Of a DNA stretch of 64,000 nucleotides, positions 29,563-63,036 are shown piece after piece (the stretch's first letter is position 1; each line of letters begins with the position of its first letter). The translations under genes and the position numbers were made by a program. The stretch is taken from positions 1 through 64,000 of the forward strand of contig NZ_AQPN01000001.1 in assembly GCF_000403135.1 (NCBI RefSeq), read 5' to 3'. The notes below the pieces were generated by a model that had not been told where the DNA came from, made no database searches, and was given only the letters and a program-made list of their open reading frames with translations. Origin of the DNA: Arcticibacter svalbardensis MN12-7. GTDB lineage: Bacteria > Bacteroidota > Bacteroidia > Sphingobacteriales > Sphingobacteriaceae.

Positions 29563-29581
29563 AATTAGTTGATTATATTGC

Positions 29582-30917: not shown

Positions 30918-31086
30918 TTTCATATAAGCTATTGTTAAATAACACCTATTCATTGGAGAGTTAAAACCGATTCCGTCACAAATTTCCAAAATCAGGTTTC
31001 CAGTGGTGTTCAGTGCAGAATTAATCTTATGTACATGATAATATTTTCAAAAAAGCATCATCATACAACGCACTATAAGCACCCAT

Positions 31087-32202: not shown

Positions 32203-32458
32203 CTTACCTCTTAACATAAACCCCTACCTATTTTCATTTATATGATTACTCCACTTACAAATTGACCCTGAGCTATACTCTTCTAATTAAAATATATGGG
32301 AGTAAATGTTACGCTTATCTGAATTGTCCAGATTGTCTTCGTCTTTTTAGAATTGAATCAGCGTATTTAGTCTTTTACGCTACCAGTATAACTGGAGTAA
32401 AAAACCTTCTGTTTCAGATTTGATTTCGGGATACTTGCAAAACCCGAGTGCCAGCTCC

Positions 32459-34024
32459 TTAAGGTTTACTAATTTTTACCATCACCACTCCTTGAGCCGG
32501 AACTGGAACGGTAAACTTTTCCTTAAACATACCAAGTCTTTTTTGCCGCCATATATCCCGGACCGCATATTTCCCTGAAATTTTCAATTCTGACCAATCA
32601 ACACTTACTTCAGCGGCTTGCCCACCCTGATTAAATAAGCCAACAGCCGTTGAACCATCGACCAGTTTTTTTACCATCAAAAAACAGCTGTCCGATTTTT
32701 TGATAACGGATCCGCATTTTCCCAAAGGATCCAGATTGACGTCTATCACTTCTGGATTACAAAGCACATTGAGCGTAAATTCATCAAGCTTTGTCATATC
32801 CCCACTAAAGAAAAGCGGTGCGGCCATTAGTGTCCACAATGACATATAAGAATATTGCTGATTCCCGCTCAACAAACTGGGTTTAGGCAGCGTAAATGTA
32901 GTTCCGATCTGAGACCCAAACGATCCAATCTGTAGGTAATCTGGATCATTCCATGCACCAGGCTTAGACCACTCTCCATGTTCAGCATTTTTGAGTGCCA
33001 CAGAAAAAAAACTATTCAATTCAAAGCCAAGATCTGATCCTGTCCGCCAACTATTTCCACTCACTTCGGTCCCCCACTCCCACACGTTTCCCATACCATA
33101 TTGGCAAAGATTATATACTATATCCCGGGACTGATGGCTTAGTGCATTACCCATTAGCTCAAAAGGTTTTTTCATCTGTTCCAGTGAAGGCTTTTGACCG
33201 ACAACCTTATTATAAGAGCACCAGTCATATTTAAGAAAATCAAATCCCCAAGCTGCATATTGAGCAGCATCCTGTTCTTCATGATTCCACGACCCAGTCA
33301 TTACGGTACAGGTTGTGGGTCCGGGCGTGCTGTAGATTCCAGCTTTAAGACCTAACGAATGGATATACTGAGTCATGGCCAGCATATCCGGAAAGTGAAT
33401 ATTGGGAATAATGTCCCCGTTGTTTTTTCGTATCGGACCGACCCGCGTTGAATCCTGCATATACGGGTTGGTTTCTGTAGCATTCATCCAGCAATCGTCA
33501 ACATTTATATATTGATATCCAACATCTGCCATTCCGCTGCTAATCATGTTATCAGCAGCTTCCCGTATCAGTTTATCGGTGATCCGGTTAAAATGGACAT
33601 ACCAGGGGCTCCAGCCCATAGGAGGAGTGAGCGCTAATTTATCGCCAGCAATTATCTTCAATTTTCTAGTACTTTTACCCTTGGAATTAGCCGCAAAAAT
33701 CAAGAGATCATAGTCCCCTTTTAAAGGAGTGACACCGGTTATGATCCCAGTAGAGGGATCCAGTTTTAATCCCGCTGGAAGATTTTTTACCAAAAACTGA
33801 ATCGGACGTTCACCCTGACATGGTATACGGTACAAAAAGGGGTGTCCCGGACGGCTACCATAAACTAAGGGTCCATTGATACGGGGCTGAGGTTTGGGTT
33901 TTGGTGTTAAAATTTCCTTTTCATTATTTACCTGCTTCCCCGTCTGTGGAAAGGCATTTACAGCACTAATTAAAATTGTGAGTAAAAGAAAGTAAAATTT
34001 TTGATGTAGCCGAATCATAATCAT
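32459..34024 (-). CDS. Alpha-galactosidase, GH27
   Basis: A 521-aa secreted enzyme that removes terminal alpha-galactose (or alpha-GalNAc). After the signal peptide (to about residue 27) comes a putative immunoglobulin-type domain (about 65-125, LPAGLKLDPSTGIITGVTP), then the GH27 barrel: TPPMGWSPWYVHF, NVDDCWM, GIYSTPGPTTC, and catalytic nucleophile D267 in LKYDWCSYN; the acid/base Asp is in WRTGSDLGF. A C-terminal beta-sandwich closes it. GH27 proteins usually have NSWN where this has SPWYVHF, a substitution seen in some bacterial members. ATG 34024 fits the signal peptide best. Confidence 0.93.
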   Translation of the reverse strand: MIMIRLHQKFYFLLLTILISAVNAFPQTGKQVNNEKEILTPKPKPQPRINGPLVYGSRPGHPFLYRIPCQGERPIQFLVKNLPAGLKLDPSTGIITGVTPLKGDYDLLIFAANSKGKSTRKLKIIAGDKLALTPPMGWSPWYVHFNRITDKLIREAADNMISSGMADVGYQYINVDDCWMNATETNPYMQDSTRVGPIRKNNGDIIPNIHFPDMLAMTQYIHSLGLKAGIYSTPGPTTCTVMTGSWNHEEQDAAQYAAWGFDFLKYDWCSYNKVVGQKPSLEQMKKPFELMGNALSHQSRDIVYNLCQYGMGNVWEWGTEVSGNSWRTGSDLGFELNSFFSVALKNAEHGEWSKPGAWNDPDYLQIGSFGSQIGTTFTLPKPSLLSGNQQYSYMSLWTLMAAPLFFSGDMTKLDEFTLNVLCNPEVIDVNLDPLGKCGSVIKKSDSCFLMVKKLVDGSTAVGLFNQGGQAAEVSVDWSELKISGKYAVRDIWRQKRLGMFKEKFTVPVPAQGVVMVKISKP

Positions 34025-34199
34025 TTTCAGTATAGTAAAGCGTGTAGAAATAATGGACAAAATGTTGAATATATTATATGCACTTATTCCTTTGTATTTG
34101 AAGGCAAATTTTAAAATTTCTCATTTCACCGACATACGAGTAAAAAAGAAAGGATTCGATGATATAATATAGCATATTCATTGCTGTATTAATAACAGA

Positions 34200-36569: not shown

Positions 36570-36579
36570 AGAAATACTT

Positions 36580-37668
36580 TTAATTTTTATGCCAGTTATT
36601 GCTAATAATACGGAGCCAGTTTCCATGTAGGATTTTTTGAATATCATCGGATTGATATCCCCGGATTGCAAGCAGCTTATTTAGACTTTGAACATCAGCA
36701 ATGGTTTCTAAATCGTAGGGAGCTTGTTCTTTTCCATACATTCCATCCAGATCACTTCCTATTGCAACATGGTCACTGTTACCGGCAATCTGGCAGATAT
36801 GATCAAAATGATCAATTATACTTTCCAAAGGGACACCATTTTTAATAGGGTCAGATACCCCTCTTTTCCAGTTATTGGTGAGCATCCAAACATCTAAGGA
36901 GCCTCCAATTACGGCTCCCCGCTCGATTAATGCTTTGATTTGGTCATCATTTAACTGCCGCTGATGATCAACCAGCGAACGGCAATTGTGGTGGCTTGCC
37001 CATATCGTTCCTTTAAAGACACTTAGGGCCTGCCAGAAAGCTTCGTCAGTTAGATGTGTAACATCCAGTATCATATTTAAATGATCCATCTCTTTTAGCA
37101 ATTGAATCCCCAGACTCTTTAAAGGACCGGTCATACCGGTACCATTTGCATATCTTCCAGGGCCATAATGAGCTGGCCCAAGTGCCCTCAAGCCATTCAC
37201 ATAAGCCTTCTCCAGATAGGAAAGGTCTATTAAGGAATCAGCCCCTTCTAAACTTAAAATATAGCCCACGGGTTTATCTTCGGCAGCTATGTTTGCATTT
37301 TCCCAGAGTGCTATATGATTTTTCAGAGATAACATGTCAGTAATCAGTATCATTTCATTTTGGTCTTCCATCGCTTTGTACCATGCAAGTTGCCCCTGAC
37401 TTTGAGCCCATGCCTGTTCCGGTGAGTTCCAGCCGGGTAATGAACTATGCTGATCAACAACACGTGCAATTTGAGTAGCCACGACAAGTCCGATATTGCC
37501 TTTTCTCAATTCAGGTAACGACACAAGCCCTTTGGCACGATCCAGTTTATCTGTTAATCCATTTTCACGTTCGCGAATTTTCGAAACAGGTTGCTTTAAA
37601 TCACGATTCCACTCCAGTGCATTCATGGCCAAGTCAAGATGGGCATCCATTATAAGGTTATTGTTCAT
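36580..37668 (-). CDS. Membrane dipeptidase family, M19
   Basis: A 362-aa zinc peptidase of the renal dipeptidase family, which splits dipeptides, including those with a C-terminal D-residue. Metal-site motifs are present: DAHLDLAMNALEW (HxD), SLEGADSL, DVTHLTDEAFW, ASHHNCRSL, and IGSDLDGMYG near the end. There is no signal peptide, so it works in the cytoplasm, unlike secreted relatives. It lies in PUL1, 11 bases after the dehydrogenase gene and 10 before GH20. It suggests that peptides, perhaps from glycopeptides, are processed with the sugars. Confidence 0.92.
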   Translation of the reverse strand: MNNNLIMDAHLDLAMNALEWNRDLKQPVSKIRERENGLTDKLDRAKGLVSLPELRKGNIGLVVATQIARVVDQHSSLPGWNSPEQAWAQSQGQLAWYKAMEDQNEMILITDMLSLKNHIALWENANIAAEDKPVGYILSLEGADSLIDLSYLEKAYVNGLRALGPAHYGPGRYANGTGMTGPLKSLGIQLLKEMDHLNMILDVTHLTDEAFWQALSVFKGTIWASHHNCRSLVDHQRQLNDDQIKALIERGAVIGGSLDVWMLTNNWKRGVSDPIKNGVPLESIIDHFDHICQIAGNSDHVAIGSDLDGMYGKEQAPYDLETIADVQSLNKLLAIRGYQSDDIQKILHGNWLRIISNNWHKN

Positions 37669-37679
37669 CGTTCAATTAG

Positions 37680-38687
37680 CTATTTATGATTCGATTTAAG
37701 CTGCTGCAGTTTTTTCTTTTCAATGATATCCGCAGGATATTTCAACGCTAGTTTCCGGATTTCATAGGTGAAATCTGTAAAAGTTTCTTCCCATAGCTTT
37801 GCTTCTTCTTCTGTATATTCATAGAATCCTTTTTGATTAGCAATTCCTTTTCCCCCATTTTTCACTATATCATCTATAAGTTTAGGCACTTCAGTCGAGT
37901 TATTTAAATCAGGAAAAAGATCCTTCATCACGTTATGATAAGCGGCTACTCCGGTAAGATCCATCCAGCGAAATATTCCTACCATTGTCATGAAGTATCC
38001 TGCATTGTTACGACAGGACCGGTCTACATCTTCAATAGTGGCATAGCCATTTTCAACTAAATAAAAAGCTTCGCGGTACATCGCATACATTAGCCGGTTG
38101 GTAATAAATCCGCGAATATCTTTACGCACAAGAATGGGTTCTTTGCCCCAGATATGGGACAGTTTATATAGGTATTCGGCAAATTCAATCGCACTGAGGT
38201 CCCCACATATGATTTCAAGAAATCGTGTTGTATGTGAGGGTTCCGCCCAGTGCAGCCCTAAAAAGCGCTCCGGATACAGGGTTAACTTTTGAAGTAAACT
38301 TATTGGAATAGCTGATGTATTACTTACCAGTATACAATCTGGAGTGATAAATGATTCTATTTTTCCATATACAGCTTTCTTAATTTCAAGATTTTCAATC
38401 GTACTCTCAATGACCAGACCGCAATCCTTAAGATCCTCAAATCGTTCAGTGATAGTCAGCAACTTCAATAGAGTTCCGGTATCAATTAGGGTAATTCCAT
38501 CTTCGAAAGAACGCATAAGATGCTTTTCAATGCGTTGCCTGGCATGATTTAAATCACTGCTTATGGGCGCAACTGCTATTACATTATGTCCGGCCATGAT
38601 CAAACATGCTGTTATGCTGCATCCCATTAATCCCAGTCCTACTACCCCAACCTGTATTTCTGATGTATTCATATTTATCTTTTTCAT
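37680..38687 (-). CDS. 3-hydroxyacyl-CoA dehydrogenase family protein
   Basis: A 335-aa NAD-dependent enzyme. The Rossmann motif VGVVGLGLMGCSITACLIMAG is near residues 12-32. The substrate part has IESTIENLEIKKAVY, SNTSAIPIS and LGLHWAEPSHTTRFLEII, where the catalytic His sits, followed by the helical C-terminal dimerisation domain. It is most like 3-hydroxybutyryl-CoA dehydrogenases, but in a carbohydrate locus it may act on a non-CoA hydroxy acid. An alternative start at 38672 (MNTSE) is possible. It precedes the dipeptidase in PUL1. Confidence 0.85.
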   Translation of the reverse strand: MKKINMNTSEIQVGVVGLGLMGCSITACLIMAGHNVIAVAPISSDLNHARQRIEKHLMRSFEDGITLIDTGTLLKLLTITERFEDLKDCGLVIESTIENLEIKKAVYGKIESFITPDCILVSNTSAIPISLLQKLTLYPERFLGLHWAEPSHTTRFLEIICGDLSAIEFAEYLYKLSHIWGKEPILVRKDIRGFITNRLMYAMYREAFYLVENGYATIEDVDRSCRNNAGYFMTMVGIFRWMDLTGVAAYHNVMKDLFPDLNNSTEVPKLIDDIVKNGGKGIANQKGFYEYTEEEAKLWEETFTDFTYEIRKLALKYPADIIEKKKLQQLKSNHK

Positions 38688-46715: not shown

Positions 46716-47561
46716 CTAAACTTTGCGCGTATCAACCAACTGATAAAATTCGGCACAATTATCTCCCCATAAATTGCTTTTTTCTTCAATGTTTAAAAAC
46801 GAAGTATTTTTTTCCAGAACTTCACAGACTTGTCCGTATGATGCAGCTAAAAGACATACCGGCCAATCACTTCCGAACATCACCCTGTCAATACCGAATA
46901 CATCTAAAACTATCGATATATAAGATTTAAAATCTTGGTGTTGCCATAAATTCCAATCTGCTTCCGTTACTAATCCAGCGATCTTGCAACTCACATTACG
47001 AAAATTTTTAAATAAAGTAATATCCTGAAGCCACCCCTCCATTAACTGATCTTTAATGAAAGGCTTAGCTATATGATTGATTACAAATTTCTGATCGGGA
47101 AATCGTTTAACAAATTCTACTGCATACCTTAAATGTCTTGGATGTATCAATATATCATAGGTATAACCAAACTTGATTAAGAGGGAAATTCCATTGCAAA
47201 AATCCTTACCTAGTAAAAAGTCGTCTTCCAATTCTGACTGTATAATATGCCTGAAGCCTTTTAAGGATTTAAACTGCGAAAAATAGGTTAAACGTTCTTC
47301 AATATTTTCAGCTCGAAAATCCACCCAGCCAACAACACCTTTAATAAAGTTGTGTTGGCTAGCCAATTGTAGTAAAAAATGGGTTTCACTTTCACTTTGG
47401 TCTGCCTGCACAGCCACGCAACCATCAATTCCATTTTGTGCTAACAGGGGCTGAACATCGGTGGGCAAAAAATCATTCTTTATACGGGACATGTCATCAT
47501 CAATCCAACTGTCCTTAATTGGGTCATATTTCCAGAAATGCTGATGGCTATCTATTTTCAT
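46716..47561 (-). CDS. Amidohydrolase / sugar-acid lactonase (COG3618-like)
   Basis: A 281-aa cytoplasmic TIM-barrel hydrolase. Metal-site pattern: MKIDSHQHFWKYDP (HxH), LIHPRH and FVINHIAKP in the middle, and MFGSDWPVCLL with the catalytic Asp. Relatives hydrolyse L-fucono-, L-rhamnono- or galactonolactones. ATG 47561 was chosen because family proteins start with this M-x-I-D-x-H-x-H-x-W. As last gene of PUL2, 37 bases after the UxaA large subunit, it would open the lactone made by the sugar dehydrogenase. Confidence 0.9.
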   Translation of the reverse strand: MKIDSHQHFWKYDPIKDSWIDDDMSRIKNDFLPTDVQPLLAQNGIDGCVAVQADQSESETHFLLQLASQHNFIKGVVGWVDFRAENIEERLTYFSQFKSLKGFRHIIQSELEDDFLLGKDFCNGISLLIKFGYTYDILIHPRHLRYAVEFVKRFPDQKFVINHIAKPFIKDQLMEGWLQDITLFKNFRNVSCKIAGLVTEADWNLWQHQDFKSYISIVLDVFGIDRVMFGSDWPVCLLAASYGQVCEVLEKNTSFLNIEEKSNLWGDNCAEFYQLVDTRKV

Positions 47562-47598
47562 CGCTGTATAATTAATTATTTTATGAGCTACTTCAATA

Positions 47599-48807
47599 CT
47601 AGGGTAAACAAGAAGGCCCAATTGGTTCAAAGGTTTTGTATCCCAGTACAAATTCCTGATGACCGAGCATTTCGGAGCAAGTTTGCTGCCCGGAAGCAAG
47701 ACTTAGAATTTTTTGGACAATCTCCTGGCCAACTTCTTTTATCGTAGCTTGGTTGTAAAGAATTTTGCCCGCGTTAATATCCATATCTTCTTCCATTCTT
47801 TTGAACGTTTCCGGGTTTGCGCACACTTTAATTACCGGAGCAATTGCCGAACCAACCACAGACCCCCTTCCTGTTGTAAATAAAACACAATGCGCGCCAG
47901 AAGCAATCAATTCAGCTATTTCAGAGCTGTCATTCGGATTGGGAAATCCAAACCTTGGATTCCCATCTGGAACAATATCCATTAAATATAATCCTGTTTT
48001 TTGGGGGATATCACCCGGTTTAATCATGCCAGAAACGGGAGAATTGCCGGTTTTACAGTAAGCACCCATTGATTTTTCTTCAAGCGTTGTCAATCCGCCT
48101 TCTGCATTACCAGGAGCAAAACTGCCATGACCCATGATTGAATAATATTTTGCTGCTTTTTCGACCGCCTTTTTTAATTCATCGGCTAACAAAGGAGTAG
48201 TAGCACGATTGCTCATGATCTTTTCCAGCCCGATCATTTCACCAGTATTTTCGAATATAGCCGTTCCTCCATTTTCTATTATTAAATCGAAAGCATTTCC
48301 AACAGCTGGGTTAGAGGTAATTCCACTTGTTGCATCGCTACCACCACAGACTACCCCTACACTCAATTCAGAGAGAGAAATATTTACAACTGGTACTGAT
48401 TTGATTTCTTCTAACGCAGATGAGATAAAATCAATTCCTTCATCAATGGCTTTTCTGGTACCACCAACAGATTGAATACCAACCAATTTTACCGGACGTC
48501 CACTTTCTTCAATAGTTTGTTGCAATCTTAACCGGTTAAAACTTTCACAACCTAAAGACACTAATAAAACAGCACCCACATTCTGGTGCGTACATAGTGC
48601 ATTCATCATTTTATCAGCATAGCTATTGGGATAACAGCCACCAAAGCCAATAAGGTGTACCTGTTGATTACGAAATTGTGTGGAAATTTCTCTTGCAACA
48701 TGGTGTGCACACTCGACAAGATAGGCTACAACTACTAAATTACGGATACCTTTTCGACCGTCCTGACGCAGGTAACCTTTTAAGTTATTTTGGACTAATG
48801 AACTCAT
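47599..48807 (-). CDS. UxaA-family dehydratase, large (C-terminal) subunit
   Basis: A 402-aa sugar-acid dehydratase subunit (altronate/galactarate dehydratase family). Typical segments are GYLRQDGRKGIRNLVVVAYL at the start, GFGGCYPN, VGVVCGGSDATSGITSNPAV in the middle and FTTGRGSVVGSAIAPVIKVC near the end. The active site holds iron ligated by conserved Cys/His. It pairs with the SAF-domain subunit whose gene overlaps it by 23 bases. In the Campylobacter jejuni fucose locus the same split pair is present, so the substrate here may be L-fuconate, as inference. Confidence 0.9.
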   Translation of the reverse strand: MSSLVQNNLKGYLRQDGRKGIRNLVVVAYLVECAHHVAREISTQFRNQQVHLIGFGGCYPNSYADKMMNALCTHQNVGAVLLVSLGCESFNRLRLQQTIEESGRPVKLVGIQSVGGTRKAIDEGIDFISSALEEIKSVPVVNISLSELSVGVVCGGSDATSGITSNPAVGNAFDLIIENGGTAIFENTGEMIGLEKIMSNRATTPLLADELKKAVEKAAKYYSIMGHGSFAPGNAEGGLTTLEEKSMGAYCKTGNSPVSGMIKPGDIPQKTGLYLMDIVPDGNPRFGFPNPNDSSEIAELIASGAHCVLFTTGRGSVVGSAIAPVIKVCANPETFKRMEEDMDINAGKILYNQATIKEVGQEIVQKILSLASGQQTCSEMLGHQEFVLGYKTFEPIGPSCLP

Positions 48808-49091: not shown

Positions 49092-49478
49092 TTACATATC
49101 TAACTTCACAATGCAATCAATTTCAATCTTGATTCCTTTCATTAAACCGGACTGTACAGTTGTTCTCGCCGGTTTAATGCCGGTAAAATATTGAGAATAG
49201 ATCTGATTAAAGCGGTCAAAATCCGATATATCACTTAGATGTACTGCACATTTTACAATATTTTGCATGGAACTACCCGCTTCCAGGATTATAGCCTCAA
49301 TGTTTTGCAAGGTCCGATGTGTTTCTTCTTCAATTGTTCCTAAGATAAAGGCGGAGGTTTTAAAATCCACAGCTGCCTGCCCACTGATAAAAAGGAAACC
49401 GTCAACCAAAACACCATCAGAATAAGCGCCTGTTGTGAATTCGTTACTACGATCCGGGTGAGAAATTTTTACTTTCAT
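49092..49478 (-). CDS. RidA/YjgF family enamine/imine deaminase
   Basis: A 128-aa Rid protein. The family core LFISGQAAVD, the helix region and KPARTTVQSG, whose Arg is the substrate-binding residue of active RidA deaminases, are present. RidA hydrolyses reactive enamines formed by PLP-dependent dehydratases. It lies 8 bases from the SAF subunit and 16 from the permease gene, inside PUL2. Its presence suggests a nitrogen-containing intermediate, or a PLP enzyme such as the one at 31087. Confidence 0.9.
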   Translation of the reverse strand: MKVKISHPDRSNEFTTGAYSDGVLVDGFLFISGQAAVDFKTSAFILGTIEEETHRTLQNIEAIILEAGSSMQNIVKCAVHLSDISDFDRFNQIYSQYFTGIKPARTTVQSGLMKGIKIEIDCIVKLDM

Positions 49479-49494: not shown

Positions 49495-50745
49495 TTAAAC
49501 CGCTTTAAATATATTGTTATCAGGTAAGGTCGTGCCCTTCCTGGTCCTTATTTTGCTTCCAACTGAAGCAAAATATAACATGAAGAGATAGGCAGGCAGA
49601 CAGACTAAATAAGCCATTTGATGCGAACTGATCTCGGCGAAATAACCATAGAGTAAGGGCCAAACGGCACCTCCAACGATTCCCATTACCAACAGGGAGG
49701 AGCCGGCTTTAGTAAATTTACCCAGGTCTGCTAAGGCAAGGGGAAATATGGCTGGCCATAGAAGTGAATTTGTTATACCCAACAATGCAACCAGGTATAT
49801 GGATACAGAAGCAGGGGCGACAACAATTAAAAGTGTCGTTATTATTCCTGATATAGTACATAAGATTAATGCATTTCTCTGACTGATTCGTCTGGGAATA
49901 AAGATTATACCCAATAAATAGCCTAATACCATTCCACCCGAAGTATACCATACATACGATTCCGGATACGGCAATTTCAAAATCGCTGCATAGTCATTTA
50001 TAGATCCCAATGCAATTATTTCTACGCCAACATCAAAAAATATCGCCACTACTCCTAACAAAACATGGGGAAATTGAAAGATATTTTTTTTTGAATTAAT
50101 ATGACTAGTTGTTAAGTTATCATTTAATGTTTCATCTTCACCGATAGCTTTAATTTCCGGAAGAGGTGAAAAATAAGATAATACGCCAACCAGGATTAAT
50201 ATTCCTGAGATAATATAGAATGGAAAAGTAACATCCTTAACCTCAACATTTGCAAGATTAAGGAAAGTAGCCAGGATCAGGGAAGCGCCTGCAAAGGATA
50301 ACTTATCACAGATACCCATGATACAGATTCTCCTTGCTGCGCTGTCGATTGACCCAAGTATGGTAACATACGAATTTATGGCACTGGTAAGTAGGGTCTG
50401 ACCAATTCCAACTATAAACAATGCAAGCAAAAACAGAGAAAAACTAACAACCTGGGAAGCAAATCCGATTAAAAAGAATCCTGCAGCAATAATTAAAAAT
50501 GCCGTAGTAATTCCTCCTTTATACCCGACCTTTCTAATTACAGTTCCTGATGGGACACCAAAAACCACGTAGGCTAAGAATGTTGCAGTCATAATTAAAT
50601 AGGACATACCAGTGGAAATATGAAATGCGTCTTGTACAAACGGTATAAAAAAGGCATTTATGCCTACAGAAAAACCCAGCACAGCATACATGGAACCTAT
50701 GATTACCAGCGGGACAATTAAAGCCGTTTTACTATTCATCATCAT
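49495..50745 (-). CDS. MFS sugar permease (FucP-like)
   Basis: A 416-aa inner-membrane transporter with about twelve transmembrane helices in two halves separated by a hydrophilic loop (about residues 200-222). The first half has the MFS signature VVFGVPSGTVIRKVGYKGGI between helices 2 and 3. The overall pattern matches the fucose/glucose permease branch of the MFS (proton symport). Position between the RidA gene and the unknown secreted enzyme supports uptake of the sugar released outside. Confidence 0.85.
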   Translation of the reverse strand: MMMNSKTALIVPLVIIGSMYAVLGFSVGINAFFIPFVQDAFHISTGMSYLIMTATFLAYVVFGVPSGTVIRKVGYKGGITTAFLIIAAGFFLIGFASQVVSFSLFLLALFIVGIGQTLLTSAINSYVTILGSIDSAARRICIMGICDKLSFAGASLILATFLNLANVEVKDVTFPFYIISGILILVGVLSYFSPLPEIKAIGEDETLNDNLTTSHINSKKNIFQFPHVLLGVVAIFFDVGVEIIALGSINDYAAILKLPYPESYVWYTSGGMVLGYLLGIIFIPRRISQRNALILCTISGIITTLLIVVAPASVSIYLVALLGITNSLLWPAIFPLALADLGKFTKAGSSLLVMGIVGGAVWPLLYGYFAEISSHQMAYLVCLPAYLFMLYFASVGSKIRTRKGTTLPDNNIFKAV

Positions 50746-50810: not shown

Positions 50811-53099
50811 TTATTTTTCGGATAGCTCCACCCGTACATATTCACAATCAATTACCTTTTCTATCAGGTCCTGAGCAACATAATAATATTGATTCGATGC
50901 TTCAAAGCCAATAAGCGGATTATTCCTTGTGATTTCAAAAAGTGTCCTTGCTAATGAGATTTCATCCATTAGTAGGACATTTATTTCCTTTCTTAACGCA
51001 CTTCTTTCGGATTCTGGAATATTTCCTGCAAGCAATTTATCCCGGCAAATTATAAAATGTGCCTGATTGGAAACAGATGCAAAGTGAATATAAGCAGCTT
51101 GAGCAATTTCAGCATCGCCCTCAGCTTTTCTTTTATTGCCAGTTGAGGCGTACTTTACTGCCTGGTTAAACATACCAAGACCTTCCTTCCAGCCCTTAAC
51201 GAGTTTATCAAATTGCTCAACAAAGACTGCTTTCGGATACGGCGCAAGCCAGCCATTCAGATCATCATAAGGAAACCCTACCATAGTAGCCGTATAATTG
51301 GTAGATTTTGCAAACAATAAATTAGCCGGCCCGTATTGCAATGGTGATCGGTAAATCACATTTGCACTAAAAGGGAATTGCCGGAATGCTTTACTGAAGG
51401 AAGTCCATGCTCTCCTTACGTATGGAACTGCTTTATCACCGTAGCGTTTTAAGGCTAGATTATTTAATATCGTTTCCGTATTTGCATTTGGTTGTTGTGC
51501 AAATGCATAAGCAATTTCCAGGTTCGGAGAAGGATATCCTCCCAGAGACCAGCTTAACATCATTCCATCTATATTTTCCTTTGCTAAATTGGAGGTGTGC
51601 TCAGCAACAAGATCAGGAACAGGAAGCCAAGGAACAGCTGATAACTCCCAAGTATTATTAATCTGCACCTTGGCAACCGTCTTTAAGCCGGCCTTTTTTG
51701 CAAATTCCCAGTGGCTTTTGGCATGATTTCCAGGACCTATAACCGAAATAGAATATTCACCAACAGTTGTTTTTACCCCTCCGCGTTCGAAGGGCTTTTT
51801 CCATTCGCTTACCGACATGAACCACACCGACTTTGGTAATTTGGAAATTATATCAAATGCATCACTATCATGCCAGCCCCAATCCCATACAATTACTTTT
51901 GCATCTGGATTCCCTTTGTGCACTCCAACTTCGATCGCTTTATTCACATCAGCTATAACAGCTGAATAGCTTAATTTACTACAGCGGGGACAGCTCTGCT
52001 GATTGCCATGCGAAGCACAATTAGTCAGGTTCTCAGATGCCGTGATGGTAAACACGCCACCCAAATCCGGCACTTGCTTAAACACATAACATAGCGAATT
52101 CGTCATCCAGTCTGTCACTGTTTTATTGCTGGTGCACAGTGCGGTAAGATCCCCTTCCCTGGCTCCTGCCATAGCACTCCTATTTTCAAAAAATGATGCT
52201 GGCATCGATCTGGGCTCATTCAGGTATAAATACACCTGAATACCATATTTCTTCGCTCGTTCAACTGTTTTTCTCAGATTCGCAATACGTTGATTGTGAC
52301 CTGCCCCGAATTCAGGAAAGTCAGTACCACCGGGGGCGAGTTGATTCAGGACAACGTGCATCCAGACCCCATTAATTCCCTGCGCCGCCAGTCTGGCCAA
52401 CAATCCGTCCGGATAAGGATTTATTGCTGTATCAATAAGTGGATCCCCAAATACACCGAAATAGGAATAGATAAAACGTAGCCCCTTTTTATTTGAATCA
52501 ATCAGAGACTGGATTTTAGGTTTATTGGGTATCGTACTTAGCTCTTCTATAAAGCCTAAACGAGGTTTTTCAGGTTTCTTTAAGGCCTTTTTAAAATATA
52601 TACCGACTAACTGCTTGATTTCTTTTGCGCGCTGTTTGTCTTTTTCAGTAGGCGTAGTAAATGAAAGACGCGGACATTTTGGTTTTAAACCACCCAACTT
52701 TATGAAGAGGAAATCATCATCACGCAGCGAAACGGCAAGTTCATTTTTTGACATTCCCGTCAGCTCCAATAGTTGGTCATAGGGTAATAAATGCCAGTTT
52801 CTCCGAATCACGGTAATAAACATCTGTTTTTTGTAGTTTTCGGGGATCAGCACACCGTTTGGTAAGCCCATTGAAGCCGCAATTTCATTAATGTCTTTAA
52901 CCTGACATCCAATTGTTTTTGCCATAATTGACGGTTCAACTAGATTCCAGTTGCGCCAAACGAAGGCATACATGGTGTTAGGAAAGTACTTAAATTCAAT
53001 GGCTGGTGGATAAGAACCAACAGGCAATTCTTCCTGAGCAAAGAGAGGATGATTTAATAAGATTAAAAGCAAAAAAGCTATTTTCAAGAATTTTAGCAT
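50811..53099 (-). CDS. Large secreted protein of no recognised family; candidate glycoside hydrolase
   Basis: A 762-aa protein with a clean signal peptide (cleavage about residue 21, FAQ). Two tandem 40-residue repeats follow: MYAFVWRNWNLVEPSIMAKT (from 43) and MFITVIRRNWHLLPYDQLLE (from 93). The large middle (about 205-520) alternates strand and helix like a TIM barrel, with VYLYLNEPRS (E295) and TITASENLTNCASHGNQQ (E356), then CPRC (C370, C373). The C-terminus (about 560-760) is helical. I cannot place it in a named GH family. Its gene overlaps creatininase by 7 bases and lies next to the permease in PUL2. Confidence 0.75.
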   Translation of the reverse strand: MLKFLKIAFLLLILLNHPLFAQEELPVGSYPPAIEFKYFPNTMYAFVWRNWNLVEPSIMAKTIGCQVKDINEIAASMGLPNGVLIPENYKKQMFITVIRRNWHLLPYDQLLELTGMSKNELAVSLRDDDFLFIKLGGLKPKCPRLSFTTPTEKDKQRAKEIKQLVGIYFKKALKKPEKPRLGFIEELSTIPNKPKIQSLIDSNKKGLRFIYSYFGVFGDPLIDTAINPYPDGLLARLAAQGINGVWMHVVLNQLAPGGTDFPEFGAGHNQRIANLRKTVERAKKYGIQVYLYLNEPRSMPASFFENRSAMAGAREGDLTALCTSNKTVTDWMTNSLCYVFKQVPDLGGVFTITASENLTNCASHGNQQSCPRCSKLSYSAVIADVNKAIEVGVHKGNPDAKVIVWDWGWHDSDAFDIISKLPKSVWFMSVSEWKKPFERGGVKTTVGEYSISVIGPGNHAKSHWEFAKKAGLKTVAKVQINNTWELSAVPWLPVPDLVAEHTSNLAKENIDGMMLSWSLGGYPSPNLEIAYAFAQQPNANTETILNNLALKRYGDKAVPYVRRAWTSFSKAFRQFPFSANVIYRSPLQYGPANLLFAKSTNYTATMVGFPYDDLNGWLAPYPKAVFVEQFDKLVKGWKEGLGMFNQAVKYASTGNKRKAEGDAEIAQAAYIHFASVSNQAHFIICRDKLLAGNIPESERSALRKEINVLLMDEISLARTLFEITRNNPLIGFEASNQYYYVAQDLIEKVIDCEYVRVELSEK

Positions 53100-53839
53100 C
53101 CCTTACTGAGTTTATCTTTAATATGATTAAGTATTACGGTTTTGGCACGATTGCCATAATCCAACGAAGCATTTAATGCACTTTTAGAATACCATTTCTC
53201 ATCAGAATAGCGGCCCATATCCACTGCTTCCGGGCAAAAAGCCATCATTAAAGAAGTTTCTTGTTCTCCAGCATGATCAATGGGGAATTCAGCCTGGACT
53301 TCCGTACTCATAAATGGATGAACGTTGATCCAGTTAAAGGGACTATCTCCTGCTGCATGGTCCTTATAATATTCAGCAAAAGAAATATTGCCCCACCATC
53401 CTTCTCCATTTTCTTTTTCTATGAAAGCAAATGTTTCCTGTCTTGCGGCAAGCTTAAACGACAGATCTGTTGGCATTCCCTCTGAAAAATTTTCACACTG
53501 ATGATGAATAAATACATGAATATTGCGGAAGCCTATACGCAATAAATTATAAAATAATTGCCTTGCAAAGGGTTGCAGAATCTGACTATCTATATGTACC
53601 GTCCCGTTACGTTCGGGAGGCTCTACAGCGAAACTACTTGCACCATAATAAAAGGGTGGAAAAATCACAATGGGCATCTCTTTTTCTATCATTTCCAGAG
53701 CGCGAACGACCAGAAGAGTATCTACCCCTGGTGATAAATGTTCACCATGATACTCCAAAACTCCTAGGGCTAATGCCACTGGTACATTTTTATCAATAGC
53801 TTCTCGGATTTGATCCGGAAACATGAGCTCATATCGCAT
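53093..53839 (-). CDS. Creatininase family amidohydrolase
   Basis: A 248-aa cytoplasmic metalloenzyme. Metal-binding residues appear in LGVLEYHGEHLSPGVDT (E, H, D; about 27-43), VFIHHQCENF and DHAGEQETSLMM (H, E). Family members hydrolyse creatinine or cyclic amides and include enzymes of cofactor and nucleobase pathways. It is the first gene after the hairpin that follows susD2 and overlaps the candidate glycoside hydrolase by 7 bases. Creatininase is not expected for fucose catabolism, so it may deamidate or open an amide of the target compound. Confidence 0.88.
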   Translation of the reverse strand: MRYELMFPDQIREAIDKNVPVALALGVLEYHGEHLSPGVDTLLVVRALEMIEKEMPIVIFPPFYYGASSFAVEPPERNGTVHIDSQILQPFARQLFYNLLRIGFRNIHVFIHHQCENFSEGMPTDLSFKLAARQETFAFIEKENGEGWWGNISFAEYYKDHAAGDSPFNWINVHPFMSTEVQAEFPIDHAGEQETSLMMAFCPEAVDMGRYSDEKWYSKSALNASLDYGNRAKTVILNHIKDKLSKGC

Positions 53840-53969: not shown

Positions 53970-55613
53970 TTATTTTGTTGGCCAACCTGGATTCTGCTCT
54001 AAATTTTTGTCCTTTATTATTTCCGTACGTGGAATGGGAAACAAATACATTTTTTCATCAAATACTAAAGGCTGAGCATCCACAACGAAGGAAGCGTAGC
54101 TGAAAGTACCATTCGCATTTTTTGTAATATCCATTCCATGAAATTTATTTCCATTCAAGCGAGTTGAGGATTGTTTCCATCTGCGCAGATCAAAATATCT
54201 TTGCTGCTCAAAACATAATTCGATATACCGTTCATTATGAATTAAGGCCCTCATTTGATCCTGGCTCATTCCTCCGCTTAAAGTAGTCGTGATTCCGGCC
54301 CTCTTCCTCAACAGGTTAATGGCATCATAAACACTTGCGTCAGGACCAGCTACTTCGTTTTCTGCTTCAGCATAGTTGAGCAACACTTCGGCATAACGCA
54401 TTTCAATCCAGGGTTGAGTACTTCCATAATTATAGGTATAAATAAGGTTATTCTGATCAATGGCCTTTAATCGGTAATAACCTGTAATCGTATTATAAAT
54501 TTGATTTGCAGGTTCTTCATTGAAATCCCTGCCCCCTTCGTAAATCTGCAGCGTGATTGTTGTCAGCACTCCGCTGATAGTACCTTTAATCTGTGAGCCG
54601 TTATAGGCAATATCAGCATAGAAACGGTTATCTCTTCCAACATACGGATTATTAGGGTCATACCCTGATGTGGGATCCGAAATTGGCTTACCATTGGCCA
54701 TAGGAAAAGCGTCCACTAATTCCTGTAAGGGTGAGCATTCACCCGCATCATTATGTGCTAAAATAAGCGGTTTTACTCCGGCATCTAGGCCATGATATTT
54801 TTCAGGCATATGATATTGCACCTCATATACCGATTCTGTGTTAGCGGGATCCTGCCATAACTTTGTCAAATCCGAATACAATGAATATTTGCCGAGCGAC
54901 ATTACGGCTTTGTTGGCCGCCGCGGCAAGCGCCCAGCGACTTTGATCATTTCCAGTGTTGAATAATGGACTGGAATAGTAAAGCATTGACCTTCCTTTTA
55001 AAGCCAGAGCAGCACCTTTTGTGGCGCGCCCCTTATCTGCACTAGCAGGCAGGAGAAGTGCTGCAGCATCCAGCTCTTTTGCGATGAAATCAAAACATTC
55101 ATCGCTCGTATTTCTAGCTACAAGCAAGTCGTCAGTTATTGCTGCTGGTTTATCCAAAATTGGGACACCTCCATAACGTTGAACGAGCCTGAAATAGAAA
55201 AATGCCCTTAAAAACCTCACTTCACCAATGCTCTTATCCTTCACAGCCGAATCGATAGGAGCTGTATTAATGGTTGCTAAAAAGTTGTTACATTTTGCAA
55301 TAGAAGCATATGTGGCGGTCCATATATCCATGGGGTTACTGGTGTCATTCCAGTTACCGACCAAAATAGTATTGGGAACGCTCCCTGGATAATCGTGCCT
55401 GGCTTCATCGGATATATTAATATAGGTGTTAAAATCCCAACCGGGTATATCGTTATATATATTATTGACATACAATTGTACCAGTGCCGGATCTGAAAAT
55501 ATATCATTTGCAGATATTGATGTGGGATTGTCTGTATCCAGAAAGTTTTTTTCACAGGAAGGTAACAATAAGGCTCCTATAAATATGACTAAAATTGACT
55601 TTATCAGTTTCAT
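53970..55613 (-). CDS. SusD/RagB family glycan-binding lipoprotein (PUL2)
   Basis: A 547-aa outer-membrane lipoprotein; lipobox LLLPSCEKNF gives Cys at about residue 20. Helical repeats include EVRFLRAFFYFRLVQRYGGV, and the end has HNERYIELCFEQQRYFDLRRWKQ and FPIPRTEIIKDKNLEQNPGW, as expected. It follows susC2 by 22 bases. Sequence clearly differs from the PUL1 SusD, so the two loci should bind different glycans. Confidence 0.96.
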   Translation of the reverse strand: MKLIKSILVIFIGALLLPSCEKNFLDTDNPTSISANDIFSDPALVQLYVNNIYNDIPGWDFNTYINISDEARHDYPGSVPNTILVGNWNDTSNPMDIWTATYASIAKCNNFLATINTAPIDSAVKDKSIGEVRFLRAFFYFRLVQRYGGVPILDKPAAITDDLLVARNTSDECFDFIAKELDAAALLLPASADKGRATKGAALALKGRSMLYYSSPLFNTGNDQSRWALAAAANKAVMSLGKYSLYSDLTKLWQDPANTESVYEVQYHMPEKYHGLDAGVKPLILAHNDAGECSPLQELVDAFPMANGKPISDPTSGYDPNNPYVGRDNRFYADIAYNGSQIKGTISGVLTTITLQIYEGGRDFNEEPANQIYNTITGYYRLKAIDQNNLIYTYNYGSTQPWIEMRYAEVLLNYAEAENEVAGPDASVYDAINLLRKRAGITTTLSGGMSQDQMRALIHNERYIELCFEQQRYFDLRRWKQSSTRLNGNKFHGMDITKNANGTFSYASFVVDAQPLVFDEKMYLFPIPRTEIIKDKNLEQNPGWPTK

Positions 55614-55635: not shown

Positions 55636-58600
55636 TTAAAGCGTTAGATTTAGTCCAACATTAAAGATTCTTTGTTGTGGGTAATATTGACCTGCTGAGT
55701 CCGAAATTTCCGGATCGAAAATTTTCAATTGGGATATCGTCAAAAGATTGAAACCTGAAAGATATATTTTCATTCTGTTGATGCCCTTTGTATGAAGCCA
55801 GGTATCATTGAAAGTATATCCCAATTCTGCAGATTTCAAACGAGCATAAGCCCTACCCCTAAGCCACCAATTCGAGTTCTGATCATTGATTGGATTAGAA
55901 CCAATCCATGCTTCAGGATATTCAGCGTCCTTGTTATCCGGCGTCCAGGCATCAAGTAGGTAGGAGAAAGTATTATTATTACTTTGACGATACATATACC
56001 TTCCCTGACCTGAAATCATAAAAGTACTTTTTGCAGTTCCCTGTAGTAATACATTCAAATTAAAATTATGCCAGTTTGCACCCAGATTTAAACCAAAAAT
56101 CATTTTGGGTGTGCCATTATTATAGGAGAGCACATGCTGATCCTTCGAATCGATTATACCATCGCTGTTTAAATCAGTGTACTTAATATCTCCTGCATGG
56201 GCATTTAATCCAAATTCTTTTCCACCCATCCAGCTTTGTGCTTCCTCGGTGGATTGAAAGAGGCCTATAGCATCATAGCCTACCATGTAGCCATATGGCT
56301 TACCCGTCTGTACCAAATAGTCTGGAGTGCCTTCGGCATCATCTATCTGAATGATCTTATTGACAGAATAGCTTGCCATAGCCCTTATATTGTAACGAAA
56401 TTTGCCTTTTTGATTTTGATGGGTGAGCGCAATTTCGAAACCTTTGTTATCCATAATGGCATAATTCACATCAGGCAGAGCCCTTCCAAAAGTTGCCGGG
56501 ACGGATAAGTCCTGCTGCCAGAGAATATCGCTTGTACGTTTATAGAAATAGTCCAGTTCAAAACCAAACTTTCCTTTCCAGAAAGATCCGTCCAGTCCGA
56601 TGTCGGTAATATTCGCTCTTTCCCAGGTAATATTTTCATTGGGATAGACCCCATAGTAAACACTTGATGCAGGTGCTCCTCCAAAAACCGGCCCTGAGGA
56701 AGTTCTGATGGTATATTGATCCACGTACTGGAAGGCTCCAACATTATCATTTCCAAGCAGACCATTTGATACCCTTAACTTCAGGTAGTCAATAAAAGAA
56801 AGGAAGGTATTATCTTTTATAAATGATTCCTGAGCAATATTCCAACCGGCGGATACAGAAGGGAAAAATCCCCATTGATGACCAGGTGCAAAAATATAAG
56901 AACCATCGTAGCGACCGGAGGCTTCGATTAAATATTTACCATTAAAATCATAATTTAACCTTCCAACTACACTTCTGCGGGTATCTAAAAGCACGGCTGA
57001 ACCGGTTAAAGATTGATTTGTAGGTCCGCTGGCAAAAAAATCGTCTTTGATGTTTGTAAGAAAATTGGCTTTGGTTCCACTTATATTAAAACCCGTTCCT
57101 TGGGACTGTTCATATAACAGTAATGCCTTTAGGTTATGCGGTCCAAAGGAATGATCATAGTTGAATGATAAATTCGATGTGATACTTTGATTATGTGTAT
57201 CGGTTTGATTCAAACTCGTCGCTGATCCTACTGTTTTTGTTCCCGTTATATTGCCGGATGCATCCTCATTGTACATGGTATAGGGGTAGGAAAAAGTTTT
57301 TGTATCAATAAAGGACTTAGAAATTCCAATATTTCCCTTTAAAGCCAAACCTGGGGTTATAAAAGGGAGATTTTGGGTGAATGACAGCGTGCCATTGAAA
57401 ACATTGTTCGTTCCGTCATTATACCCGGCACTATGAATCATTTCGTAAGGATGCGAACCTTGTGTATTATAGGGTTTACCATCCGGATGAAAAGCAGGTA
57501 TTGCAGGAGATTGTGCCTGTACGATGGCGAAAATATTTGTTGCTGTAAAAGGTGGCGCATTGTTCTCTTCCTGCCTGCCGTCCAGTAATAAACTAACAGT
57601 CAAATTCTTGTTTATTTCTGCATCCACATTAGATCGGAAATTATATCTTTTGAAATTAATATTGTCATACATTCCATCCTGATCGAGGAAACCTAACGAC
57701 GCAAAATACCGGACAGTTTTTGATCCCCCGCTTACTGTGAGATTGTGGTGGCTGACTGCTGAATTTTTCTTAAACGTAACATCATACCAGTCTGTGCCAA
57801 TTTTACCGGTGTTAAAATCTGCAAGTTGCTGATCTGAATAAAACAATCCGGCCTGGGCCGGATTGGCGGGATCATATCCTTGATTAATCAGCGCTGTGTT
57901 ACGTGTGCTGGCATACTGATATGCATTCATCAGTTTAGGATAAAGAGTAGGTGTTTGAAATCCGAAATCACCAGAATATGTGATTACTGGTTTACCAATC
58001 TGTCCGTGCTTGGTTGTAATCAGAAAAACGCCGTTTGCTGCCCTTGCCCCATATACAGCCGCTGCAGAGGCATCCTTCAAAACAGTAATACTAGCAATCT
58101 CGTTGGGATCAAGCTGAGAAAAATCACGACCGACAATTCCATCTATTACGATCAGTGGCGTATTGCTGTTCAGCGTAGATGTACCTCTTATTGTATAGGA
58201 AGACCCATATCCTGGTGCTCCGCTGGCATTAACTGCGATCAGACCGGGTAATCTTCCAACTAAATCATTTGAAATATTAGGTGAGGCTGATTGTAACAAT
58301 TCATTACCCGAAATCGAAGAAACAGCTCCTGTTACATTTGCTTTTCTCTGTGTTCCATATCCAACAACCACAACCTGATTTAAACTGGTGCTGTTCATCT
58401 TCAGGACCACATTCAAAATCTCTTTGCCAGCAACCACTACTTCCTGTGTTACAAATCCGATTGAACTAAAAACAAGCACAGCAGCATTATCATTGACACG
58501 GATACTGAATCTGCCATCTTTATCCGTCACAGCTACATTCTTAGTGTTTTTTTCCCTTATTATCACTCCAGGCAAACCTTCTCTGGTAGAGTCAGTTACT

Positions 58601-59037
58601 GCACCGGTAATTTGAACAAAAGATTCTGTAGTAGAAATTTTGGATTCTATTTTTGGATCAATTAGGATCGCTTTATCCTGAAGTTCGAAAGTAAACAACT
58701 CATTGTTCAGATTTTTCTGAAACACTTCTTCTAGTTTAGCATTCCTGACCTCAATCGAAATTGGTTTTGCCTGTTTTAATAAATCAGAATTATATAAAAA
58801 ATTGTAGCCGGTCTGTTTTTTAATGGCATCCATTATTTTTTCCAGTGGTGCATTTTTCTCTGAGAGGGTCACTCTTTGCAAGTTTTCCATGGTATTTGCC
58901 TTTAAAGAATCAGCAAAAATGACCAGGACAACAAGCTTCAATATTAATAATACCTTGGCATATGGTTTATGCCTTTTTTCAATTTGCTCAAGGCAAAGAC
59001 ACCTTCCTGCCCTCTTTGGAAAAGTTTTAAAATCCAT
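55636..59037 (-). CDS. SusC/RagA TonB-linked outer membrane receptor with STN domain (PUL2)
   Basis: A 1133-aa TonB-dependent importer. The N-terminal signal-anchor region (to about residue 48) is followed by STN (about 52-120, VTLSEKNAPLEKIMDAIKKQ), the carboxypeptidase-D-regulatory-like domain (ITGAVTDSTREGLPGVIIRE), a plug beginning VVVVGYGTQRKANVTGAVSS, and the barrel ending in NVGLNLTL. The STN domain and the FecR gene immediately upstream make a classical trans-envelope sensing pair: substrate binding would relieve FecR inhibition of an ECF sigma factor. Confidence 0.96.
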   Translation of the reverse strand: MDFKTFPKRAGRCLCLEQIEKRHKPYAKVLLILKLVVLVIFADSLKANTMENLQRVTLSEKNAPLEKIMDAIKKQTGYNFLYNSDLLKQAKPISIEVRNAKLEEVFQKNLNNELFTFELQDKAILIDPKIESKISTTESFVQITGAVTDSTREGLPGVIIREKNTKNVAVTDKDGRFSIRVNDNAAVLVFSSIGFVTQEVVVAGKEILNVVLKMNSTSLNQVVVVGYGTQRKANVTGAVSSISGNELLQSASPNISNDLVGRLPGLIAVNASGAPGYGSSYTIRGTSTLNSNTPLIVIDGIVGRDFSQLDPNEIASITVLKDASAAAVYGARAANGVFLITTKHGQIGKPVITYSGDFGFQTPTLYPKLMNAYQYASTRNTALINQGYDPANPAQAGLFYSDQQLADFNTGKIGTDWYDVTFKKNSAVSHHNLTVSGGSKTVRYFASLGFLDQDGMYDNINFKRYNFRSNVDAEINKNLTVSLLLDGRQEENNAPPFTATNIFAIVQAQSPAIPAFHPDGKPYNTQGSHPYEMIHSAGYNDGTNNVFNGTLSFTQNLPFITPGLALKGNIGISKSFIDTKTFSYPYTMYNEDASGNITGTKTVGSATSLNQTDTHNQSITSNLSFNYDHSFGPHNLKALLLYEQSQGTGFNISGTKANFLTNIKDDFFASGPTNQSLTGSAVLLDTRRSVVGRLNYDFNGKYLIEASGRYDGSYIFAPGHQWGFFPSVSAGWNIAQESFIKDNTFLSFIDYLKLRVSNGLLGNDNVGAFQYVDQYTIRTSSGPVFGGAPASSVYYGVYPNENITWERANITDIGLDGSFWKGKFGFELDYFYKRTSDILWQQDLSVPATFGRALPDVNYAIMDNKGFEIALTHQNQKGKFRYNIRAMASYSVNKIIQIDDAEGTPDYLVQTGKPYGYMVGYDAIGLFQSTEEAQSWMGGKEFGLNAHAGDIKYTDLNSDGIIDSKDQHVLSYNNGTPKMIFGLNLGANWHNFNLNVLLQGTAKSTFMISGQGRYMYRQSNNNTFSYLLDAWTPDNKDAEYPEAWIGSNPINDQNSNWWLRGRAYARLKSAELGYTFNDTWLHTKGINRMKIYLSGFNLLTISQLKIFDPEISDSAGQYYPQQRIFNVGLNLTL

Positions 59038-61064: not shown

Positions 61065-61153
61065 TATTTTAATCTGAGTGCGCTACTGATTGTCAAAATA
61101 TAAGGTTTTTGAATTCTCATAATTACTTATTTCATTTTTTTTACTATTATTCT

Positions 61154-61939
61154 ATGAATTTAGACCTTCAAGATAAAATCATAATTGTAACGGGTGGAGC
61201 CAAAGGTATCGGAGAAGGTATCAGTCGAGTACTAGCGTCAGAGGGTGCTATCCCCGTAATTATTGGCAGGACCAAAGAAGATAATAAAAAGACCGTACAG
61301 GAAATCTTAAACAAGGGGGGAAAAGCATACCAGTTTGTAGCTGAATTAACCAGTCCCAGTGCTTGTAAAAACGTAATCGAACAGATTAGTATTGAATTTG
61401 GACGAATTGACGGGTTAGTAAATAATGCAGGCGAAAACGACAACATCGGGCTTGAACAGGGTAGTTATGAAGGATTTCTACAATCCCTTCATAAGAATCT
61501 GATCCATTACTACCTAATGGCACACTATTGCTTACCTAAATTGATAAAGTCCAACGGGCCAATAGTCAATATGGGCTCAAAAATCGCGGAGACTGGCCAG
61601 GGTGGTACTTCGGCATATGCCGCGGCAAACGGAGGGCGAAATGCTATGACACGCGAGTGGTCGGTCGAATTATTGAAGTATAATATCCGCGTAAACGCGA
61701 TAATTGTCGCAGAATGCTGGACTCCATTGTATGAAAGCTGGCTGAATTTACAGGAAAATCCTAAGGAAAAGTTATATGGAATTACTCAAAAAATCCCTCT
61801 TCAGCAACGAATGACAACAACGGAAGAGATTGCCAACATGGCCGCTTTCCTTTTATCTTCGAAATCCAGTCATATTACCGGACAGCTTATACATGTCGAT
61901 GGTGGCTATGTCCATTTAGACAGGGCAATAACCAAATAA
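61154..61939 (+). CDS. SDR dehydrogenase, L-fucose dehydrogenase-like
   Basis: A 261-aa short-chain dehydrogenase that probably oxidises L-fucose (or a similar sugar) to its lactone with NAD(P). Rossmann motif TGGAKGIGEG (13-22), NNAG (90-93) and catalytic S142 and Y155 are present. The Lys of YxxxK is Asn here (Y155-AAA-N159), apparently with the local context GGRNAMTREW. The C-terminus GQLIHVDGGYVHLDRA fits the fucose-dehydrogenase branch. ATG 61154 (MNLDLQD) gives the standard start. It is transcribed away from PUL2. Confidence 0.9.
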   Translation: MNLDLQDKIIIVTGGAKGIGEGISRVLASEGAIPVIIGRTKEDNKKTVQEILNKGGKAYQFVAELTSPSACKNVIEQISIEFGRIDGLVNNAGENDNIGLEQGSYEGFLQSLHKNLIHYYLMAHYCLPKLIKSNGPIVNMGSKIAETGQGGTSAYAAANGGRNAMTREWSVELLKYNIRVNAIIVAECWTPLYESWLNLQENPKEKLYGITQKIPLQQRMTTTEEIANMAAFLLSSKSSHITGQLIHVDGGYVHLDRAITK

Positions 61940-62133: not shown

Positions 62134-63036
62134 TCAGCCTATATTTTTACTTCTTTGTCTGTATCCGTTTGGGGAAATACCGATATAATTTTTAAACAGC
62201 CGAGAAAAATAATAAGGATTATCATATCCCACTTGCATCGCAATAGCTTTTATCCTAGTCCGGTCAAGATAGAGCAGCTGACATGCTTTTTGCATTTTTA
62301 AGTGTATGAAATAATCAATTGGAGACATTCCTGTGGTTTTTCTAAAAAGATTTGAAAAATGGGAAACAGATAACCGGTGCTGAGTGGCCATTTCTTCCAC
62401 GGTAAGTTTTATATTTAACTTATTGCGCATATTCTGGATGGTTTTTGTGATTATATCACTGCTATTGTCTGCATTATTATGTACATGACGTTCAGGAAAT
62501 AAGAAGGTCGCTAATAAATAAAAAAGACTAAAAGAAGCACTGATTAGGTTTTCATGACTATACCCCATTTCAAGAGTCTGGTAAATATTTTGCCAGGTTG
62601 AAATGGCATTTTCATTTAATGGAATTTGCACAGGAGGTTTTGTTATTTGAATATTTAATGAATTATTAACATGATCAATTTGATCACTGGCAAAATGCAA
62701 CCAGTAGATGGTCCAGGGATCCTCATCATCCGCCCAGTAACTGATGTATTTATTTGTAGCTGGCAGTAATACAAACTGGTTGGCATTTACTTCATGACGC
62801 TTATTATCTAATATGCAGTGTCCTTTACCCTGTATGCAATAAATCAAAATATTCTCTGTGCAGCCTTTTTCCCGCGCCCTGTAATGAAAGGCAGCTTTTG
62901 GAAAATAACCAATTTGGGTAAGATAGATATGAAAAAGCTCAGGGCTTTTTTCTTTGGCATCTTTCAGCACCTTTTCAGGAATATAGATCACTTTTTCACC
63001 TTCGAATCCATCCCGGATTTTCATTTTCTTTGCCAT
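62134..63036 (-). CDS. AraC family regulator with cupin sensor
   Basis: A 300-aa regulator. The N-terminal cupin sugar-sensing part (about 35-125) includes ENILIYCIQGKGHCILDNKR and WTIYWLHFAS, typical of carbohydrate-responsive AraC proteins. The C-terminal helix-turn-helix pair (about 200-298) reads LTVEEMATQHRLSVSHFSNL, then IKAIAMQVGYDNPYYFSRLF with the signature KNYIGISPNGYRQRS. It is next to the SDR gene (convergent) and PUL2, so it is the best candidate activator of these genes and perhaps of PUL1 through the shared motif. A 26-bp perfect inverted repeat lies 49 bases upstream. Confidence 0.93.
   Translation of the reverse strand: MAKKMKIRDGFEGEKVIYIPEKVLKDAKEKSPELFHIYLTQIGYFPKAAFHYRAREKGCTENILIYCIQGKGHCILDNKRHEVNANQFVLLPATNKYISYWADDEDPWTIYWLHFASDQIDHVNNSLNIQITKPPVQIPLNENAISTWQNIYQTLEMGYSHENLISASFSLFYLLATFLFPERHVHNNADNSSDIITKTIQNMRNKLNIKLTVEEMATQHRLSVSHFSNLFRKTTGMSPIDYFIHLKMQKACQLLYLDRTRIKAIAMQVGYDNPYYFSRLFKNYIGISPNGYRQRSKNIG

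Follow-up and report, generated by a model that had tools for sequence, protein, structure and literature searches.

P0001, a protein of 762 residues encoded in the first 64,000 nucleotides of contig NZ_AQPN01000001.1 of Arcticibacter svalbardensis MN12-7 (hereafter, the window), belongs to a real and conserved family of glycoside hydrolase (GH)-like proteins that, as sequence comparison tells us, is not named in Pfam or NCBIfam. Judged against the sequence libraries that define its unassigned status (Pfam, NCBIfam and PDB), it is a candidate for a new GH family. On balance, we favor the view that P0001 is an exported, exo-acting GH that cleaves a terminal sugar with inversion and works within the pathway proposed below.

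The open reading frame of P0001 starts with ATG and contains no internal stop codon, and its N-terminus (MLKFLKIAFLLLILLNHPLFAQEELP) reads by eye as a Sec-type signal peptide (residues ~1-22), in agreement with an earlier sequence-only reading that had described a secreted protein of this length. The genome contains a single copy of the gene. The same reading could not place the protein in any family, and the domain models bear this out: the Pfam match was to GH67M (PF07488), with an E-value of 0.014 and 14.9 bits, below the cut-off of 23.5, whereas NCBIfam and PDB sequence searches with P0001 returned zero matches. No match of P0001 to GH29 (PF01120) or GH95 (PF14498) was reported by Pfam. 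Among 14 family members, PF07488 matched three at E-values up to 1 (best, 0.007), P0001 staying below the curated cut-off, and DUF4838 (PF16126) matched two, the better one at an E-value of 0.014, below the gathering cut-off. Profile searches of the PDB with 14 and with 53 family sequences gave chance-level matches only, and GH138 chains were absent at E-values up to 10 from a family-profile search of all PDB sequences. A match to an alpha-L-fucosidase (8z63) in a PDB profile search, with an E-value of 0.32, was at chance level and was discounted.

Homologs of P0001 are found across Bacteroidota, Verrucomicrobiota, Planctomycetota, Latescibacterota and Clostridia; those that are 34-52% identical come from Planctomycetota, Verrucomicrobia/Limisphaerales, Latescibacterota, Prolixibacteraceae, Clostridia and an unclassified bacterial MAG. 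Within the host's own family, six of the 151 genomes (the host included) have a homolog, and nine of the 395 genomes of the host phylum match, six of these only weakly and partially. Of 289 genomes from the phylum that includes the Verrucomicrobia locus L013, 79 have matches, many at three or more places and some weak; for the phylum of the Planctomycetota locus L008, the figure is 18 of 294, several only weak. A tblastn search of a plasmid collection with P0001 gave zero matches. There is also a second layer of P0001-like proteins, in which the match is confined to the barrel and the C-terminal part, and the family profile recovered a DUF4838 protein (L084) with an E-value of 3e-10. A Tat-like RRxF motif is present in 13 of 51 family members, and many members from Verrucomicrobiota start without an apparent signal peptide; thus, periplasmic glycan release cannot be family-wide. 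In L055-L075 and other Verrucomicrobiota matches, P0001-like proteins occur in several copies per genome and many of them lack an apparent signal peptide, a cytoplasmic expansion. A distant relative (L007 / L040 9101-11488, minus strand; ~23% identical), flanked by neutral ceramidase-like genes, has no Cys cluster and no acid at the position of E356.

Two AlphaFold2 models were obtained, one for the whole protein (mean pLDDT 81.6) and one for residues 195-762 (mean pLDDT 80.5). In both, eight barrel strands precede a helical domain, so that the barrel-like middle suspected in the sequence-only reading is indeed predicted as an (alpha/beta)8 barrel; confidence is low in the loop at residues 584-610. 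Structure searches with the whole model matched GH20, GH67, GH115 and GH84. When the N-terminal module was removed, the best match of the barrel and C-terminal domain was GH138 (6hze, Foldseek E-value 5.8e-14), with a Z score of 20.1 over 483 residues of 6hzg at an rmsd of 5.1 Å and 10% identity; the same model scored 18.4 with GH84, 17.1 with GH67 and 16.3 with GH115, the rmsd in such matches being large (4-5 Å). The comparison with Pfam models and, by Foldseek, with known GH folds that the earlier reading had suggested thus gave no Pfam family above its cut-off and structural neighbors of GH type, led by GH138. Within the N-terminal module a short helical unit occurs twice (hhalign E-value 6e-7); the divergent relatives appear to lack it. 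The repeat unit reads RNWxLLPxxxLxxLLGxT in residues 38-140 (window ~52680-52988, minus strand).

The best reading of the predicted fold is membership in a barrel-plus-helical-domain superfamily together with GH138, GH67, GH115, GH84 and DUF4838, although a GH-like barrel by itself is no proof of hydrolysis. The GH138 exo-alpha-galacturonidase BP0997 (6hze/6hzf/6hzg), which acts on rhamnogalacturonan-II, is closest in overall predicted fold, sharing the barrel and the helical C-terminal domain, but P0001 has no sequence match to GH138 chains. With GH67 alpha-glucuronidase (1gqi, 1h41 and 1k9d), P0001 shares PDxGGxxxxxxSE around the acid and the strand order of the acids, yet it falls below the Pfam cut-off for this family, has Ile in place of Lys288, and contains a cluster of four Cys that is absent from the GH67 sequences compared here. 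The DUF4838 protein L084 has Cys at the positions of C322, C361, C370 and C373; P0001, however, has no PF16126 match, and it is only other family members that match this model, below the cut-off.

Six residues, E356, E485, C322, C361, C370 and C373, are invariant in 53 aligned homologs, and E356, E/D432 and E485 are retained by four divergent relatives as well as by the core family. The sequence-only reading had singled out E295, E356 and a CxxC motif (C370-C373), all of which are located where it put them. Of its pair of conserved-looking Glu residues, E356 stood up to the comparison, but E295 did not: two of the four divergent relatives have Val or His at its position. The motif after strand 4 is S-E-N, in which E356 is flanked by the nearly invariant S355 and N357 and there is no adjacent acid. 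In an hhalign comparison of the family with GH67, starting from residue 191 (E-value 1e-4, probability 57%), 'PDLGGVFTITASEN' fell on 'PDFGGFLVKANSEG', which places E356 on the GH67 catalytic acid in the SE motif after strand 4; the register of this alignment is reliable only through strand 4, and the full-length comparison gave nothing. The GH67 acid is E292, as its motif Glu is Ala in PDB entry 1h41, titled E292A. By strand order, E432 (after strand 6) and E485 (after strand 7) would correspond to D365 and E393, which have catalytic roles in GH67. In the hhalign alignment, the position of GH67 Lys288, which binds the substrate carboxylate, is taken by I352, a residue conserved in 98% of 51 sequences, and GH67 Arg325 lies opposite D406 in an alignment made by eye. 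The four Cys are kept also in members without an apparent signal peptide and in those with Tat-like RRxF signals. Since a cytoplasmic protein would hardly be expected to contain disulfides, the more plausible guess is a metal site, and from their conservation the Cys around E356 probably form a structural metal site, such as one for zinc.

Table 1. Features of the window relevant to P0001 and its operon (window coordinates; residue numbers for the domain layout)
Feature	Position	Strand	Basis or remark
P0001, putative exported GH-like (alpha/beta)8-barrel protein	50811..53099	-	Translation, predicted model, alignment
P0001 layout			Signal peptide ~1-22; duplicated helical N-terminal module ~38-140; barrel ~205-535; helical C-terminal domain ~540-762
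Creatininase-like hydrolase (PF02633)	53093..53839	-	Gene end overlaps P0001 start
SusD-like lipoprotein, same operon	53970..55613	-	
SusC-like TonB-dependent transporter, same operon	55636..59037	-	Read from translation
MFS sugar permease, GluP/NagP/FucP group	49495..50745	-	Barely above gluP cut-off, far below fucP cut-off
RidA-family enamine/imine deaminase	49092..49478	-	
SAF-like small subunit of UxaA-type dehydratase, 99 aa	48785..49084	-	By eye; no Pfam match
UxaA-type sugar-acid dehydratase, large subunit	47599..48807	-	PF04295 + PF20629
Amidohydrolase-family sugar lactonase, L-fuconolactonase-like	46716..47699	-	Below curated cut-off; true start probably internal, near 47560
L-fucose dehydrogenase	61109..61939	+	NF052481, above cut-off; outside P0001 operon
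AraC-family regulator	62134..63036	-	69% identical AraC adjoins P0001 homolog in L033

The operon runs in the order SusC, SusD, creatininase-like hydrolase, P0001, MFS permease, RidA, small UxaA, large UxaA and lactonase (Table 1). Besides SusC and SusD, P0001 is its sole product with an evident signal peptide (judged by eye), which upholds the earlier description of it as the only secreted enzyme-like protein of the operon. The sugar genes listed in the sequence-only reading are a different matter: the permease, lactonase and dehydratase are present, but the dehydrogenase is encoded on the opposite strand and is not part of the operon. The small SAF-like UxaA subunit had been overlooked. The set of SusC, SusD, creatininase, MFS, UxaA, lactonase, RidA and P0001 recurs in similar order in L035 and L037, where a SusC that is ~50% identical heads the same operon, and in part in L033. 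A homolog of the creatininase-like protein was found in four of the 151 family genomes, all four of which also have P0001; the hypergeometric chance of this is ~7e-7 when kinship is ignored, and two of the four genomes are close relatives. The split-type UxaA is present in six genomes, four of them with P0001. In L119, a RhaT-type symporter and a deacetylase-like protein are encoded close to the split-type UxaA and a lactonase, and the P0001 homolog in L039 has relatives of this symporter and this deacetylase-like protein (62% and 73% identical) nearby. The loci from Verrucomicrobia, Planctomycetota and Clostridia have almost no gene in common with the window, one GH20 in L013 being seen, and thus offer no substrate clue. 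Paper searches on DUF4838, GH138 and the combination of fucose, UxaA and creatininase yielded nothing usable.

Elsewhere in the window, a neighboring locus (27388-36671, minus strand) carries genes for a NAGLU-type alpha-N-acetylglucosaminidase of GH89 (27388-29562), a melibiase of GH27 (32459-34060) and a GH20 protein (34200-36671). Enzymes of these types would be fitting for mucin-like glycans or for others of the HexNAc/galactose type. Genes of the D-serine dehydratase/alanine racemase-like, M19 dipeptidase and 3-hydroxyacyl-CoA-dehydrogenase types occur near P0001 homologs both in the window (31087-38687) and in L036 (1207-9499); L036 additionally has RidA, a class III aminotransferase and a ceramidase-like protein.

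The sequence-only reading took the operon for one that serves L-fucose or a similar 6-deoxy sugar and, seeing no known fucosidase in the window, proposed that P0001 filled this role. If so, P0001 would represent a new alpha-L-fucosidase family that feeds the adjacent L-fucose oxidative route. On the one hand, just beyond the operon the host genome encodes an L-fucose dehydrogenase, a FucP-group permease, an SDR similar to 2-keto-3-deoxyfuconate dehydrogenase and an FAH-family hydrolase. On the other hand, L-fucose dehydrogenase is present in 104 of the 151 genomes of the host family, so that its nearness to P0001 says little and we dropped this link as evidence; none of the eight genomes covered by the genome-contig scan passed the cut-off for this enzyme. 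Furthermore, in five of the seven other P0001-bearing Bacteroidota genomes (G083, G064, G098, G057 and G307), the genes for L-fucose dehydrogenase, lactonase, fused UxaA, a second SDR and an FAH-family hydrolase form an L-fucose cluster of their own, which in four of these five also includes an MFS permease. The P0001 operon resembles this canonical Bacteroidota oxidative cluster in its permease, lactonase and UxaA classes; it differs in having a split UxaA, in the added creatininase and RidA, and in lacking a dehydrogenase, and the two coexist in the same genomes. The canonical and window lactonases compare at 48.9% (tblastn). In the three of these five genomes that have both UxaA types, the split enzyme is only ~30% identical to the fused one, and its substrate is therefore probably different. 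The picture from the host genome itself is mixed. It has, on another contig, a second L-fucose-type cluster (L125, G000:C43:103001-121000) with fused UxaA, SDR and FAH hydrolase, in which no lactonase was found and the L-fucose dehydrogenase match stops early (residues 1-206 of 257). The lack of a local fucosidase is accurate as far as it goes, because the window's own contig has no GH29 or GH95 match, but other contigs of the host genome have at least seven intact-looking GH29 matches and at least three GH95 matches; hence, the absence is no paradox that calls for a new family. The case for a fucose-type operon is weak, as its lactonase, split UxaA and permease look like paralogs that serve a different and probably related sugar, and we regard a new alpha-L-fucosidase as improbable.

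A uronidase (alpha-galacturonidase or alpha-glucuronidase) would fit the structural neighbors, as GH138, GH67 and GH115, the closest structures, are all uronidases. UxaA-type dehydratases act classically on altronate and galactarate; in this reading, the enzyme encoded in the operon would handle an acid derived from the released uronate. In L120, a GH28 follows a related UxaA. However, the carboxylate-binding Lys and the Arg of GH67 are replaced in P0001, as described above, the permease resembles the GluP/FucP group, and the lactonase is more in keeping with oxidation of an aldose than with a route through uronate isomerase, an enzyme that was not noticed among the operon genes; we thus hold this option to be unlikely, if worth keeping in mind. 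The high rank of GH20 and GH84 in the structure searches, together with the GH20 and GH89 genes in the neighboring locus, would suggest a hexosaminidase like those of GH20 and GH84, with a retaining, substrate-assisted mechanism. GH20 and GH84 are defined by an adjacent acidic pair after strand 4 that serves substrate-assisted catalysis. This pair is missing from the S-E-N motif of P0001, and no PF00728 match was reported for P0001 or its close homologs, which makes such an activity very improbable. We give equally little credence to a catalytically dead or non-hydrolase relative, such as a glycan-binding or sensing protein: named GH families match below threshold only and the duplicated helical module has no assigned function, but the three acids that follow strands 4, 6 and 7 are conserved across phyla, and the one evidently exported operon product other than SusC/SusD is encoded upstream of catabolic genes.

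Hydrolase activity of P0001 is likely on the strength of its modeled fold and conserved acids. The analysis itself establishes the family, with its predicted fold and its conserved residues, and the linkage of the operon genes; from these results we infer hydrolysis, a mechanism, a metal and a pathway order as follows. In the exported, inverting exo-hydrolase that we favor, E356 would act as the general acid, and E432 and/or E485 would activate water, in an arrangement like that of E292, D365 and E393 in GH67; inverting cleavage would release the terminal sugar, and the four invariant Cys around E356 probably bind a structural metal, such as zinc. SusC and SusD would carry the glycan across the outer membrane, P0001 would act in the periplasm to release a terminal monosaccharide, which would be taken up through the MFS permease, and the lactonase, split UxaA and accessory enzymes would degrade the aldonic acid of this sugar. 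Our preferred guess for the released sugar is a 6-deoxyhexose or a related neutral aldose, because a FucP/GluP-like permease is nearby, RhaT is found in L039, and the carboxylate-binding Lys of GH67 is lost. More tentatively, P0001 might found a new GH family in which a GH67/GH138-type active site sits beside an invariant four-Cys metal site, and a second oxidative pathway, parallel to that for L-fucose and made up of the creatininase-like hydrolase, RidA, lactonase and split UxaA, might be dedicated to the breakdown of its sugar.

With a GH-like family that spans several phyla and is often multicopy in Verrucomicrobiota, a gap in the annotation of CAZymes would be filled. If the Cys cluster does bind a metal, its location beside the candidate catalytic acid would be unusual. 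Finally, the conserved operon with its paralogous sugar-acid pathway offers a direct route to the substrate of P0001, by way of the dehydratase and the lactonase.
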